This document shows positions 48,441 through 52,428 of a DNA stretch of 64,000 bases, piece after piece. This DNA is from Ignavibacteria bacterium. Its GTDB lineage: Bacteria; Bacteroidota; Ignavibacteria; Ignavibacteriales; SURF-24. The notes under the pieces are model-generated. The model had not been told where the DNA came from, made no database searches, and saw only the letters and a program-made list of their open reading frames with translations. Made by a program: the position numbers and the translations under genes. The stretch's first letter is position 1, and each line of letters starts with the position of its first letter. Location of the stretch: positions 1 to 64,000 of the forward strand of contig JAAXKQ010000012.1 of assembly GCA_025612245.1 (NCBI GenBank), given 5' to 3'.

Positions 48441-48578
48441 AAACACATTTATTTTAACCATGAATTCGCTATTTTTGCAAGACAGTTATTCTCTTCCTGC
48501 TAAAGAAACATTTTCTCTTAAGTTTAAGTATAATGGGCGGTTTCAGTAAAATTCTGTTCTGCTTCCAAGAGGTAATTC

Positions 48579-50024
48579 ATGTTTGAATCCGTGCTGGAAT
48601 TTTTCAGCGATTTAATAAAGAACATTCGTTTTGTTGATCTTCTTGATATCGGAATCGTTTCTTTCTTTTTATATACATTTATTAACTGGTTCAGGAAAAG
48701 CGCTTCAAGAAGGCTTTTAATTGCAGTGACCATTTTTATTGTGGTTTATCTCCTGTCCAGAATATTTGGCCTGTACCTGACTGAAATGCTGATCAAGATT
48801 GTAATTGGCGTTATACTGATTGCGGCAATTATTCTCTTCCAGTCGGACATAAGGCGCCTTATAGATCTCATAGGCACATGGGGAGGCCTGAGGGGTTCAA
48901 AGAGGACCGGGATCCTGAATACATCGGTCGATACCATTATTTCAGCCTGCTCAAAAATGGCAGAAAAGCGTGTAGGAGCGCTTATTGCAATAAGAGGGCG
49001 TGAGATATGGGATAACTGCATCAATGGCGGCATTGAGCTCGACGGTAAATTGAGTCAGCCCCTTTTATATAGCATATTTAACACCAAGTCGCCCGGTCAC
49101 GACGGCGCCATACTTATTGAAGACAACAGGATTATTAAGTTCGGTGTCCACCTGACTCTTTCTACAAACCTGAAGGAGCTTAGTGTGGGTGGAACGCGCC
49201 ATGCTGCTGCACTGGGGCTTTCGGAAAAGTGCGATGCATTTGTCATTGCAGTTTCAGAGGAAAGAGGAACAATAAGCGTAGCCGAAGACGGAAAGCTTAA
49301 GATCATGTCCTCAAGCAGCGAGCTAAAGGAAAGAATTGAAAGTTTCTGGGATAAAAACTTCGGTAAAAAGGAAGAAACAATTTCAAGGTGGTGGAAAAGC
49401 AAGAGCCTTCAGACGGCAATTGTTGCAGTGTTTCTTTCCATGGTCTTCTGGGCACTGTTTGCTTACCAGTCGGACAAGATTTATAAAAGCTATACCGTAC
49501 CGATTGAATTCCGCAATCTGCGGCCTGACCTGGCCTTGGAAGACCCCATTCCAATTGAAGGAAGGGTTACTTTATCCGGCTCTGAACAGGCATTCAGGCT
49601 TTTTAACTCAAATAACCTGAACATATCAATTGACATGGAAAGGCTTGAAAAAGGGGAAAACGAAATCATGGTTGCAAGAGACAACCTGGAACTCCCCTCA
49701 GGCATTAACCTCTACAGGGTAGATCCCCGCGTACTTAAGATTAAGGCCTCAGCAATGAAACTGGTGCGCGTGCCCGTAAAGGTGCAGGTAACAGGCAGGA
49801 TGCACAAGAATCTGAGCCTCTATGCTGAACCCGGATATATAATGCTGAAAGTACCTGCAAACAGCTATAATGTACCCAGGTATGTTTCCACGGAACCTGT
49901 GGATCTTTCAGAGGTCAGTGAATCATCTGCCATTCCAAGCAGACTTATTCCGCCAAAGACCGCAAGGCTTCTGCCGGATCAGAGTCCAGAGATAACCGTC
50001 AGGGTTCAGGTTCCAAACAGGTAG
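48579..50024 (+). CDS. cdaA: Diadenylate cyclase CdaA fused to YbbR (CdaR-like) domains
   Basis: 481 residues. The N-terminal 270 are CdaA: three membrane helices (about 22-95) and a DAC domain that makes c-di-AMP from two ATP. It carries GHDGAILIEDNRI (the DGA motif) and GGTRHAAALGLSE, the counterpart of RHRAA..SE, then FVIAVSEERGTISVAEDG. A further membrane helix (about 273-290, TAIVAVFLSMVFWALFAY) leads to an extracytoplasmic region of about 190 residues with YbbR-like repeats (VPIEFRNLRPDLALE; VPVKVQVTGRM..). In Firmicutes CdaA and its regulator CdaR are separate adjacent genes; here they appear as one chain, with about two YbbR units instead of four. AGAGG precedes ATG 48579. Confidence 0.9.
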   Translation: MFESVLEFFSDLIKNIRFVDLLDIGIVSFFLYTFINWFRKSASRRLLIAVTIFIVVYLLSRIFGLYLTEMLIKIVIGVILIAAIILFQSDIRRLIDLIGTWGGLRGSKRTGILNTSVDTIISACSKMAEKRVGALIAIRGREIWDNCINGGIELDGKLSQPLLYSIFNTKSPGHDGAILIEDNRIIKFGVHLTLSTNLKELSVGGTRHAAALGLSEKCDAFVIAVSEERGTISVAEDGKLKIMSSSSELKERIESFWDKNFGKKEETISRWWKSKSLQTAIVAVFLSMVFWALFAYQSDKIYKSYTVPIEFRNLRPDLALEDPIPIEGRVTLSGSEQAFRLFNSNNLNISIDMERLEKGENEIMVARDNLELPSGINLYRVDPRVLKIKASAMKLVRVPVKVQVTGRMHKNLSLYAEPGYIMLKVPANSYNVPRYVSTEPVDLSEVSESSAIPSRLIPPKTARLLPDQSPEITVRVQVPNR

Positions 50025-50109: not shown

Positions 50110-52428
50110 TTGGCTGACGAGGCGAAAGTTTTTATTTTAACCGGAGAGTGGCAGGATCTTCAAAAAGGGAACACTTTGAATTTCTGGGGCATTTCGGATA
50201 CCGGGGTGCCCGTAGAGTTTATTATCGATGAGATAAGGCCGGTCTTTTTTATTGACAGGCTTAACACACCCTTAAACTTACCATTCCAGCATAACCGCAG
50301 GGAAGTCAAGTTAAAATCCTTTGACTTTAAGGACGTCGATGCGCTGTATTTCAGGACGCAGAGGGACCTGAAAGCCGCCGCCGAATTCCTGCGTTCAAAT
50401 GCCATAAGGACCTATGAGTCGGACGTGGACCCCGTAAGACGGTTTTTAATGGAACGCTTCATTTACGCACAGGTTAAGCTTACAGGTGAGAGCACCAATC
50501 AGGGCAATTCCATACGCTTCATAAACCCAAAGGTTGCCCCCTGCGAATTTGAACCTGGCTTTAGAATTGCCTCAATTGACATTGAAACAGGCATTCAGGA
50601 TGGCAGGCTTTACTCAATTGCTGCCGACCTTAGGGGAGCATCTGGAATCGAGCAGATTGTGTTTATGCTGGGGGATAACCCGCCTGAGGCTCATCAGGAT
50701 CCCAGGTTAAAACTTTTTCCGACAGAAAAAGAGCTCCTGCAGAATTTTATCGCCTGGTTTAAGTCTTCCGATCCGGACATTATTATCGGGTGGCACGTAA
50801 TAGGCTTTGACTTAATGTTCCTGGAAAATAAGGCCCGGGAGCTTCATGTCCCGTTTGACATTTCAAGAGGGGGCAGAATCTCTCTTGGCACCGGAAGAAT
50901 GGGGAACTACTATGCCTATATACCGGGAAGAGTTGTAATTGACGGACCACCCGCCTTAAGAGGGGCATTTTATTCCTTTGAGGATTATAAGCTTGAAACA
51001 GTGGCGCAGGAGCTCCTGGGTAAGGGAAAGACAATTGCGCCTGATGAAGATAAAGTAGGCGAAATTGAAAGATATTTCAGCCAGGATAAGATTAAGCTTG
51101 CCGAGTATAACCTCCAGGACGCCGTACTTGTAAGCGAAATATTTGCTAAAACCGGGCTCATAGAGCTCTGCGTAAAAAGGTCGCAGATCTCGGGCCTCAT
51201 GATGGACCAGCTTTCAAAGATGACGGCGGCTTTTGACAACTTCTACCTCCCGAGGCTCCACAGGGCGGGGTTGGTGGCTCCGGACAGTACAAGCCCAAAG
51301 ATGGAGGAAAACCTCCTGGGAGGCTATGTCATAGATCCAAAACCCGGAATTTATGACGATGTAATTGTAATGGACTATAAAAGCCTTTATCCTTCCATAA
51401 TAAGGACTTTTAAGATAGATCCTCTTTCCATGCTCTCCTCGGATATAAATCCGGTAGTAACCCCCGGTGGCTACAGGTTCTCGGCAACAAAACACATATT
51501 GCCCGACTATATAGGCCTTCTTATGGAAAAAAGAGCCGGAGCCAAGAAAAGCCGTAACAGGCACCTGGCACAGGCAATTAAAATCCTTATGAACAGTTTC
51601 TATGGCGTTATGGGCGCATATGGATGCAGGTTCTTTCGTCCTTATCTTCCTAACGCAATTACAACTACAGGGCAGTGGGTCCTTCTTGAAAGCAGGAAGT
51701 TCTTTGAGGAAAAAGGCTATGAAACTGTCTATGGGGATACAGACTCACTGTTCTTAAGGCTAAAGACCGTTGAAAAGGGAGACAAGGCACTCAAAGCCGG
51801 GGAAATGCTTGCCCGCGAGATGAACGAATTCTGGAGAATGCGCCTTAAAAGTGAGTTTTCTCTGGATTCCTTTCTTGAAATTGAATTTGAAAAGCACTAT
51901 AGCCGATTTATTCTGACACAGGCCAGGGGAACGGAAAACGGGGCTAAAAAACGCTACGCCGGGCTGATTGAAACCGGGGGAAAACGTGAACTGGAGTTTA
52001 CGGGTATGGAAATCGTGCGCTCGGACTGGACACGACTGGCAAAGGAATTTCAGCAGGAACTCTACAGCCTCATCTTTAACGGCCAGGATGCGGGAGAATG
52101 GATAAGAGAATTTGTAGATGGAATAAACCGCGGCGTGCATGACGACAAGCTGGTCTACAGGAAAAGGCTCAGAAAGGACCTGGACCTCTACACAAAAAGT
52201 ACGCCTCCGCACGTAAAGGCTGCAAGAATGATTAACCAGTCTTCCGGCGTCATCAGGTACGTAATGACAAAGAGGGGGCCCGTTCCCGTGGAGCTTGAGC
52301 ACGGTGACTATGACTACCAGCACTACATTGAAAAACAGATAAAGCCCATAGCCGATTCTGTGCTCGGTCTTTTAGGGCAGTCATTTGAGACTCTCTTTAA
52401 GCCCACACAGCTGAATTTCTTCTCCTAG
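50110..52428 (+). CDS. polB: DNA polymerase II (family B)
   Basis: 772 residues, close to the 783 of E. coli Pol II, with 3'-5' exonuclease and polymerase domains. Exo I is SIDIETG (about residue 157), Exo II DPDIIIGWHVIGFDLMFL and Exo III YNLQDAVLV. Polymerase motif A is MDYKSLYPSI (about 420), motif B ILMNSFYGVMGAYGCRF and motif C VYGDTDSLF (about 540), so both active sites look intact. Starts at TTG 50110; the nearest upstream ATG is followed by a stop. In E. coli this enzyme works in replication restart and translesion synthesis. No LexA-type site was recognised upstream. Confidence 0.93.
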   Translation: MADEAKVFILTGEWQDLQKGNTLNFWGISDTGVPVEFIIDEIRPVFFIDRLNTPLNLPFQHNRREVKLKSFDFKDVDALYFRTQRDLKAAAEFLRSNAIRTYESDVDPVRRFLMERFIYAQVKLTGESTNQGNSIRFINPKVAPCEFEPGFRIASIDIETGIQDGRLYSIAADLRGASGIEQIVFMLGDNPPEAHQDPRLKLFPTEKELLQNFIAWFKSSDPDIIIGWHVIGFDLMFLENKARELHVPFDISRGGRISLGTGRMGNYYAYIPGRVVIDGPPALRGAFYSFEDYKLETVAQELLGKGKTIAPDEDKVGEIERYFSQDKIKLAEYNLQDAVLVSEIFAKTGLIELCVKRSQISGLMMDQLSKMTAAFDNFYLPRLHRAGLVAPDSTSPKMEENLLGGYVIDPKPGIYDDVIVMDYKSLYPSIIRTFKIDPLSMLSSDINPVVTPGGYRFSATKHILPDYIGLLMEKRAGAKKSRNRHLAQAIKILMNSFYGVMGAYGCRFFRPYLPNAITTTGQWVLLESRKFFEEKGYETVYGDTDSLFLRLKTVEKGDKALKAGEMLAREMNEFWRMRLKSEFSLDSFLEIEFEKHYSRFILTQARGTENGAKKRYAGLIETGGKRELEFTGMEIVRSDWTRLAKEFQQELYSLIFNGQDAGEWIREFVDGINRGVHDDKLVYRKRLRKDLDLYTKSTPPHVKAARMINQSSGVIRYVMTKRGPVPVELEHGDYDYQHYIEKQIKPIADSVLGLLGQSFETLFKPTQLNFFS

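Follow-up and report, generated by a model that had tools for sequence, protein, structure and literature searches.

We analysed a window of 64,000 nucleotides from the genome of an Ignavibacteria bacterium, in which an open reading frame that starts with ATG and runs uninterrupted by a stop codon encodes a single protein joining a CdaA-type diadenylate cyclase to a YbbR region (Table 1). The frame is preceded by AAGAGG, its likely ribosome-binding site. The upstream neighbour is a PAS histidine kinase gene, while directly downstream lies a gene for a family B DNA polymerase (50110-52428), and this kinase-fusion-polymerase order is found also in the two nearest relatives (L036 and L037). As judged by Pfam, the protein contains CdaA_N (PF19293; residues 15-91, E 1.4e-7, above the curated cut-off), DAC (PF02457; E 5e-36, 123.3 bits against a cut-off of 27) and YbbR (E 2.2e-7, 31.5 bits against a cut-off of 22.3, in two stretches of which 398-461 is the best), with no significant domain beyond these three found in the same scan; the protein also exceeds the equivalog cut-off of the NCBIfam model TIGR00159, 'diadenylate cyclase CdaA' (197 bits versus 188.8).

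Table 1. Features of the fused gene and of the protein it encodes, in positions of the window.
Feature	Position	Strand	Evidence
Likely ribosome-binding site, AAGAGG	48567..48572	+	sequence
ORF of fused CdaA-YbbR protein, 481 aa	48579..50024	+	open frame; Pfam CdaA_N + DAC + YbbR; TIGR00159 over cut-off
Transmembrane helix 1, residues 18-39	48630..48695	+	model, hydropathy
Transmembrane helix 2, residues 45-63	48711..48767	+	model, hydropathy
Transmembrane helix 3, residues 66-86	48774..48836	+	model, hydropathy
DAC (diadenylate cyclase) domain, residues 122-240	48942..49298	+	Pfam PF02457; fold match to CdaA, Z 26
HDGA motif, residues 174-177, with G173 before it (canonical CdaA: L)	49098..49109	+	alignment columns
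R207-H208-A209, altered RHR motif	49197..49205	+	alignment columns
S226-E227-E228-R229 (SEER; canonical CdaA: SEET)	49254..49265	+	alignment columns
Transmembrane helix 4, residues 277-295, homologous to YbbR signal anchor	49407..49463	+	model, hydropathy, alignment with separate YbbR protein
YbbR unit 1, residues 301-393, predicted outside membrane	49479..49757	+	3lyw, Z 11.1; phmmer 2l3u, E 0.0013
YbbR unit 2, residues 397-478, predicted outside membrane	49767..50012	+	Pfam YbbR 398-461; 2kxy, Z 7.3; 4qdy

Hydropathy places four helices near residues 18-36, 47-65, 70-88 and 277-295, with positive charges flanking the helices on their presumed cytoplasmic sides, a pattern that fits a predicted cytoplasmic DAC domain and a YbbR tail on the outer side. 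The AlphaFold2 model, computed from an input of 84 sequences (mean pLDDT 88.8), consists of three helices, the DAC domain, one helix and two beta-rich domains. Structure comparison superposes residues 107-257 of the model on CdaA and matches residues 290-481 to the YbbR protein 4qdy (Z 11.1, rmsd 7.0), residues 301-393 to the YbbR structure 3lyw and residues 387-481 to 2kxy. An earlier note, made from the letters of the window, had read the protein as a CdaA with three helices and a DAC domain that runs via a fourth helix into about two YbbR units; Pfam, hydropathy, the AlphaFold2 model and the fold matches bear this reading out, the YbbR identity of the C-terminal region being secured by its profile score and the number of units by the 3lyw and 2kxy matches.

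The same genome encodes a second DAC protein, a standard CdaA of 269 residues with the motif MRHRAGLG, which is 34% identical to the fusion and has directly ahead of it a gene that reads as folP (by eye rather than by profile). It also encodes a separate YbbR protein, in a 332-residue frame at about 135 kb on the contig of the window (L039:4694-5689 = G000:C17:135193-136188), with an apparent thymidylate kinase gene (likewise by eye) directly behind it, and a PgpH-type hydrolase (PF07698, a family linked to c-di-AMP hydrolysis). With a standard CdaA and a separate YbbR protein present, the idea that the fusion is the cell's only route finds no support, and the fusion is an extra, paralogous cyclase in this genome. 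The separate YbbR protein aligns to the tail of the fusion from the signal-anchor helix onward (E 2e-6); the joint lies just ahead of this helix, so that the fusion is in effect a cdaA joined to a cdaR, and homology supports reading the joint as the end of the one gene and the start of the other. Chance or an assembly artefact as the source of the fusion was ruled out, since independent genomes carry it with the same joint; identity among relatives ranges from 86% within the same genus down to 24-27% elsewhere.

A DAC protein was found in 58 of the 59 genomes near that of the window, four of which (the window's own, G000, and G001, G004 and G028) carry the fusion besides a standard CdaA, this second DAC lying in a frame of 480-499 residues. 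Across 296 genomes of the phylum, a match reaching residue 390 or beyond was obtained in eight (G000, G028, G144, G193, G211, G248, G262 and G318). The same search returned three further long frames (G222, G086 and G266), and those of G222 and G086 were rejected as fusions, the frames being extended upstream and having no tail. In a species-level genome collection at least 568 stretches encode relatives, and 76 of the best 80 of these loci have at least 113 residues behind the DAC domain, the exceptions being L121 and L138, whose tails are short, L123, which runs into a contig end, and L129, whose frame stops early; the expectation that the fused architecture would be rare did not survive this count. 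By record title, the best 80 of the at least 568 include Omnitrophota, Planctomycetes, Myxococcota, Deltaproteobacteria/Desulfobacterales, Elusimicrobia, Ignavibacteria, Bacteroidetes, Longimicrobiaceae, Dadabacteria, Latescibacterota and others, in proportions biased by search patterns that were built from RH[AT] forms. From the 86 fusions found we removed a broken copy (L043), a frame-split one (L088) and the window's own copy (L002), and added the window protein; among the resulting 84 aligned fusions DAC was detected at E 0.001 in 84, CdaA_N in 66 and YbbR in 53. One-unit and two-unit YbbR forms both occur, and helix 4 and the tail are kept throughout the fused lineage. The fusion is a real, conserved architecture common to many phyla, and no freak. 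The broken copy, L043 (G262:C1:1082277-1083716), is a fused gene with one in-frame stop in a genome whose standard CdaA frame is open, so the fusion seems dispensable there.

As for the motifs of standard CdaA, the fusion has an intact HDGA, while GxRHRxA reads GTRHAAA (within GTRHAAALG), the second arginine being absent, and the metal-site motif SEET reads SEER, with the S and both E retained. The alignment confirms the altered arginine motif that had been pointed out earlier, and with two standard features departed from we file the fusion as a variant rather than as a standard CdaA. Position 209, the second arginine of RHR, is A in 35, R in 25, T in 13, S in 6, H in 3, L in 1 and Y in 1 of the 84 fusions, as compared to R in 43 and K in 2 of the 45 standard CdaA rows that entered the alignment (R/K lost in 0/45); the full set of 77 non-fused rows has R there in 74 cases and K in 3. 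The residue before HDGA, position 173, is G, S or T in 60 fusions and V, I or L in 24, and R209 is lost in 58 of the former 60 and kept in 23 of the latter 24. Position 229 is R in 74/84 fusions versus 1/45 standard rows; a one-to-one swap of R209 for R229 was rejected, as many fused RHR proteins also have SEER. Position 191, where the window protein has H191 in place of the adenine-stacking tyrosine (Y187 in Listeria), is H in 46 of the 58 fusions that combine G, S or T at 173 with a residue other than R at 209, and is Y in just 5/45 canonical CdaA. D175, G176, R207, S226 and E227 are invariant in the 84 fusions, with H208 kept in 83 and E228 in 82. In the standard CdaA rows the threonine before RHR is replaced by M (16/45) or L (10/45), and this substrate-contact position therefore varies in canonical enzymes too. 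Published work describes the residue ahead of HDGA as a dimer contact in B. subtilis CdaA (L169) (PMC8573169). In the Leptospira enzyme, activity is abolished by D172A and by R203A, which fall in the motifs that contain D175 and R207 here (PMC12974146), and both DacA of M. tuberculosis and CdaS of B. thuringiensis become inactive when RHR is changed to AAA (PMC3328451, PMC4568413). Since the RHR changes in these studies are all triple, they do not judge the single loss of the second arginine.

In a tree built without the motif columns, the 45 standard CdaA fall on one branch (support 99, starred), a separate fused branch unites 21 rows (support 100, starred), of which 20 have RHR and most carry titles naming Desulfobacterota, and 58 altered fusions group with two RHR fusions (support 93, not starred). 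The tree requires one change for the fusion itself, one at position 173, three at position 209 and ten at position 229, which suggests that the fusion is old and, in this sample, perhaps of single origin. Independent coevolution of positions 173, 191 and 209 was ruled out: with one change at 173, three at 209 and just three independent pairs on the tree, common ancestry explains their correlated change. As judged from the alignment and the tree, the altered motif is no peculiarity of this locus: it is the mark of one lineage and not evidence of repeated coevolution.

We searched 61 altered-motif genomes for DACs and found a further one in 45 and none in 16, the latter being the sum of 14/42, 1/9 and 1/10 (G144); the genome of L123 (with 5) was left out of the nine, its locus being cut. 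G144, the single one of the 16 with a completeness figure, is 100% complete. This solitary occurrence is the best clue that the altered fusions may be catalytically active. A gene for a Pde2-like DHH phosphoesterase lies immediately next to the fusion and in the same orientation, at times within a few bases, in 8/16 sole-DAC genomes (loci L048/L197, L071, L087, L091, L101, L103, L109 and L122) and in 0/45 of the altered-motif genomes with a further DAC (Fisher p 4e-6, uncorrected for kinship, seven of the eight pairs belonging to one subclade, and with flanks of differing lengths). The four abutting proteins scanned score just below or above the Pfam cut-off for DHH. The closest solved relative of the abutting proteins is 5xsi, 'Phosphodiesterase acting on cyclic dinucleotides' (Pde2; E 2.3e-6); manganese pyrophosphatases of the same superfamily come next, followed by TmPDE (E 0.003). 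With a looser search this DHH family turned up in 18 of the 40 genomes examined, and the subfamily was not found in that of the window.

Within the window's phylum, all nine examined genomes that have another DAC besides the fusion contain PgpH (PF07698), the window's own included. Absence of PgpH was considered a signature of the altered lineage on a first contrast of 9/9 with a further DAC versus 0/6 without, and this contrast failed in a wider set of 49 genomes, in which PgpH is present in just 12/28 genomes with a further DAC and in 3/14 sole-DAC altered-motif ones. It is absent from G144, and missing from 12/15 of the sole-DAC genomes tested.

Among the fetched flanks of 59 altered-motif loci, with Pfam run on representative flank genes, an MscS-type channel gene lies at six loci, a trehalose-phosphate synthase gene at five and a TreT-like trehalose synthase gene at four, together eight loci; G144, L078 and L106 have MscS and both trehalose genes, and L091 has both trehalose genes. 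At L197 (G144:C28:37500-52500) genes for a DHH phosphodiesterase, the fused cyclase, MscS, a TreT-like protein and OtsA/OtsB-type trehalose synthesis lie together in a compact stretch. No MscS or trehalose gene was seen at the 45 standard CdaA loci, whose flanks are much shorter (median locus ~3.4 kb versus ~10 kb of flank) and so provide no control, and none of the three kinds of gene, DHH, trehalose or MscS, was detected next to the fusion in the window's genome. According to PMC6108528, c-di-AMP governs osmoresistance where its role is known, and the trehalose/MscS setting fits this. Clustering of the neighbours, with families assigned by eye and from crude gene calling that serves GC-rich loci poorly, gave no GlmM or FolP family present in at least four loci. 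A DUF2914 protein gene lies upstream, often ~10 bases away, in 19/25 fused RHR loci (among L113-L149) and also at L136 (e.g. L136:1634-2047), making its product a possible partner of the fused RHR cyclase.

Our preferred reading, to which we give a probability of roughly two in three, is that the fusion is a functional diadenylate cyclase whose YbbR part, in the periplasm, controls it in cis. Three helices would hold the DAC domain in the cytoplasm, and helix 4 would take the chain across the membrane to two YbbR units in the periplasm. c-di-AMP formation by CdaA is described as requiring two DAC domains face to face, which GlmM blocks in B. subtilis (PMC8573169), and a ybbR insertion or loss of YbbR in S. 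aureus as raising c-di-AMP (PMC11520302). Because helix 4 tethers the YbbR pair to each cyclase, a change outside could alter DAC pairing inside: the state of the tethered pair, responding to an envelope or osmotic cue, would set whether the DAC domains can meet, with the tethered YbbR acting as the separate CdaR does by binding. In the window's genome this would provide a second, envelope-coupled cyclase besides the standard CdaA. By analogy, control by an envelope signal is plausible; we infer catalytic activity, c-di-AMP as the product, the cis control and its sign, and the osmotic signal. The domains and fold, the kept catalytic residues, the sole-DAC genomes (16/61), the DHH pairing (8/16), PgpH in the genomes of the phylum with both DACs (9/9), the trehalose and MscS genes (8/59) and the S. 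aureus ybbR effect argue for this explanation; the loss of the second RHR arginine, the lack of a DHH, trehalose or MscS neighbour and of that DHH subfamily in the window's genome, the missing PgpH (12/15), the stop in G262 and the fact that the DHH pairs follow the tree argue against it.

It is improbable, in our estimation, that the DAC domain of the fusion is catalytically dead and acts instead as a regulator that binds nucleotides or c-di-AMP, for instance through mixed dimers with the genome's standard CdaA. Such a role would agree with the loss of the second arginine, with the change of the dimer-contact residue before HDGA (B. subtilis L169; PMC8573169), with the further DAC in 45/61 altered-motif genomes and with the one broken copy, but the remaining catalytic residues are nearly or fully invariant in the 84 proteins, and half of the 16 genomes in which the fusion is the sole DAC found have an abutting gene for a cyclic-dinucleotide-type phosphodiesterase. 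We likewise doubt that an active cyclase carries its YbbR half as a purely passive membrane or scaffold tether: the partners that are fused here form a regulatory complex in Firmicutes (PMC8573169, PMC11520302), and helix 4 and the tail have been kept throughout the lineage, even though one-unit and two-unit forms both occur and the YbbR sequence is poorly conserved, reaching E 0.001 in 53/84 fusions.

There is a slim chance that the altered lineage makes a different product or uses a different substrate, given that the residue before HDGA, the adenine-stacking position (H191, in 46/58 altered fusions) and the second arginine have all changed, that SEER is present in 74/84 fusions and that PgpH is absent from 12/15 sole-DAC genomes tested; however, canonical CdaA too mostly lack the stacking tyrosine (Y in 5/45), PgpH is retained in 3/14 sole-DAC genomes and the abutting phosphodiesterases are related to known cyclic-dinucleotide enzymes. 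Just as slim is the chance that the RH[AST]-type fusions are a separate enzyme class with a rebuilt active site (a small residue before HDGA, a histidine at the stacking site and the SEER arginine), in which synthase and DHH phosphodiesterase would make up a self-contained module serving osmotic or envelope stress and perhaps using a cyclic dinucleotide other than c-di-AMP.

Having cyclase and CdaR-like part in one chain fixes their stoichiometry, and as a single protein that can be purified and cut by domain the fusion makes envelope-to-CdaA signalling testable. The lineage raises the question of whether the second RHR arginine, which is treated as a hallmark, is needed, and it draws attention to signalling of the c-di-AMP type in groups such as Omnitrophota and Elusimicrobia, with the fusion as the only DAC found.

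Our literature search listed no publication whose entry tells of a CdaA-YbbR fusion, the DAC-family review by Galperin lying outside its reach. This review (Galperin 2023, J Bacteriol, 'All DACs in a row') reportedly sorts DACs into families by architecture, and Heidemann 2019 is said to report crystal structures of CdaA; it seems likely that the DAC and YbbR architecture has already been described in print. With CdaA (DacA, TIGR00159) the fusion shares the three N-terminal helices, the DAC domain, HDGA, the first R and the H of RHR, and SEE, but it has RHA rather than RHR, G rather than L before HDGA, SEER rather than SEET, and the added helix and YbbR half. The fusion resembles CdaR/YbbR proteins (4qdy, 3lyw, 5hqh and 2l3u) in the sequence and fold of helix 4 and of its two beta-rich units; CdaR of Firmicutes is a separate protein (PMC8573169, PMC11520302), whereas the two YbbR units of the fusion sit behind the cyclase. 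The cdaA-cdaR-glmM set of Firmicutes (PMC8573169) has the same two partners with the cyclase first; in the window they form one gene, with the PAS kinase and the family B polymerase rather than glmM as neighbours. In the intact-RHR fused branch, mostly Desulfobacterota (e.g. L113, L132, L142), the members likewise consist of CdaA, a helix and two YbbR units, but they keep RHR and V before HDGA, and a DUF2914 gene lies upstream at 19/25 fused RHR loci. The motif lineage, the solitary occurrence and the DHH pairing are the likeliest parts of the finding to be new.
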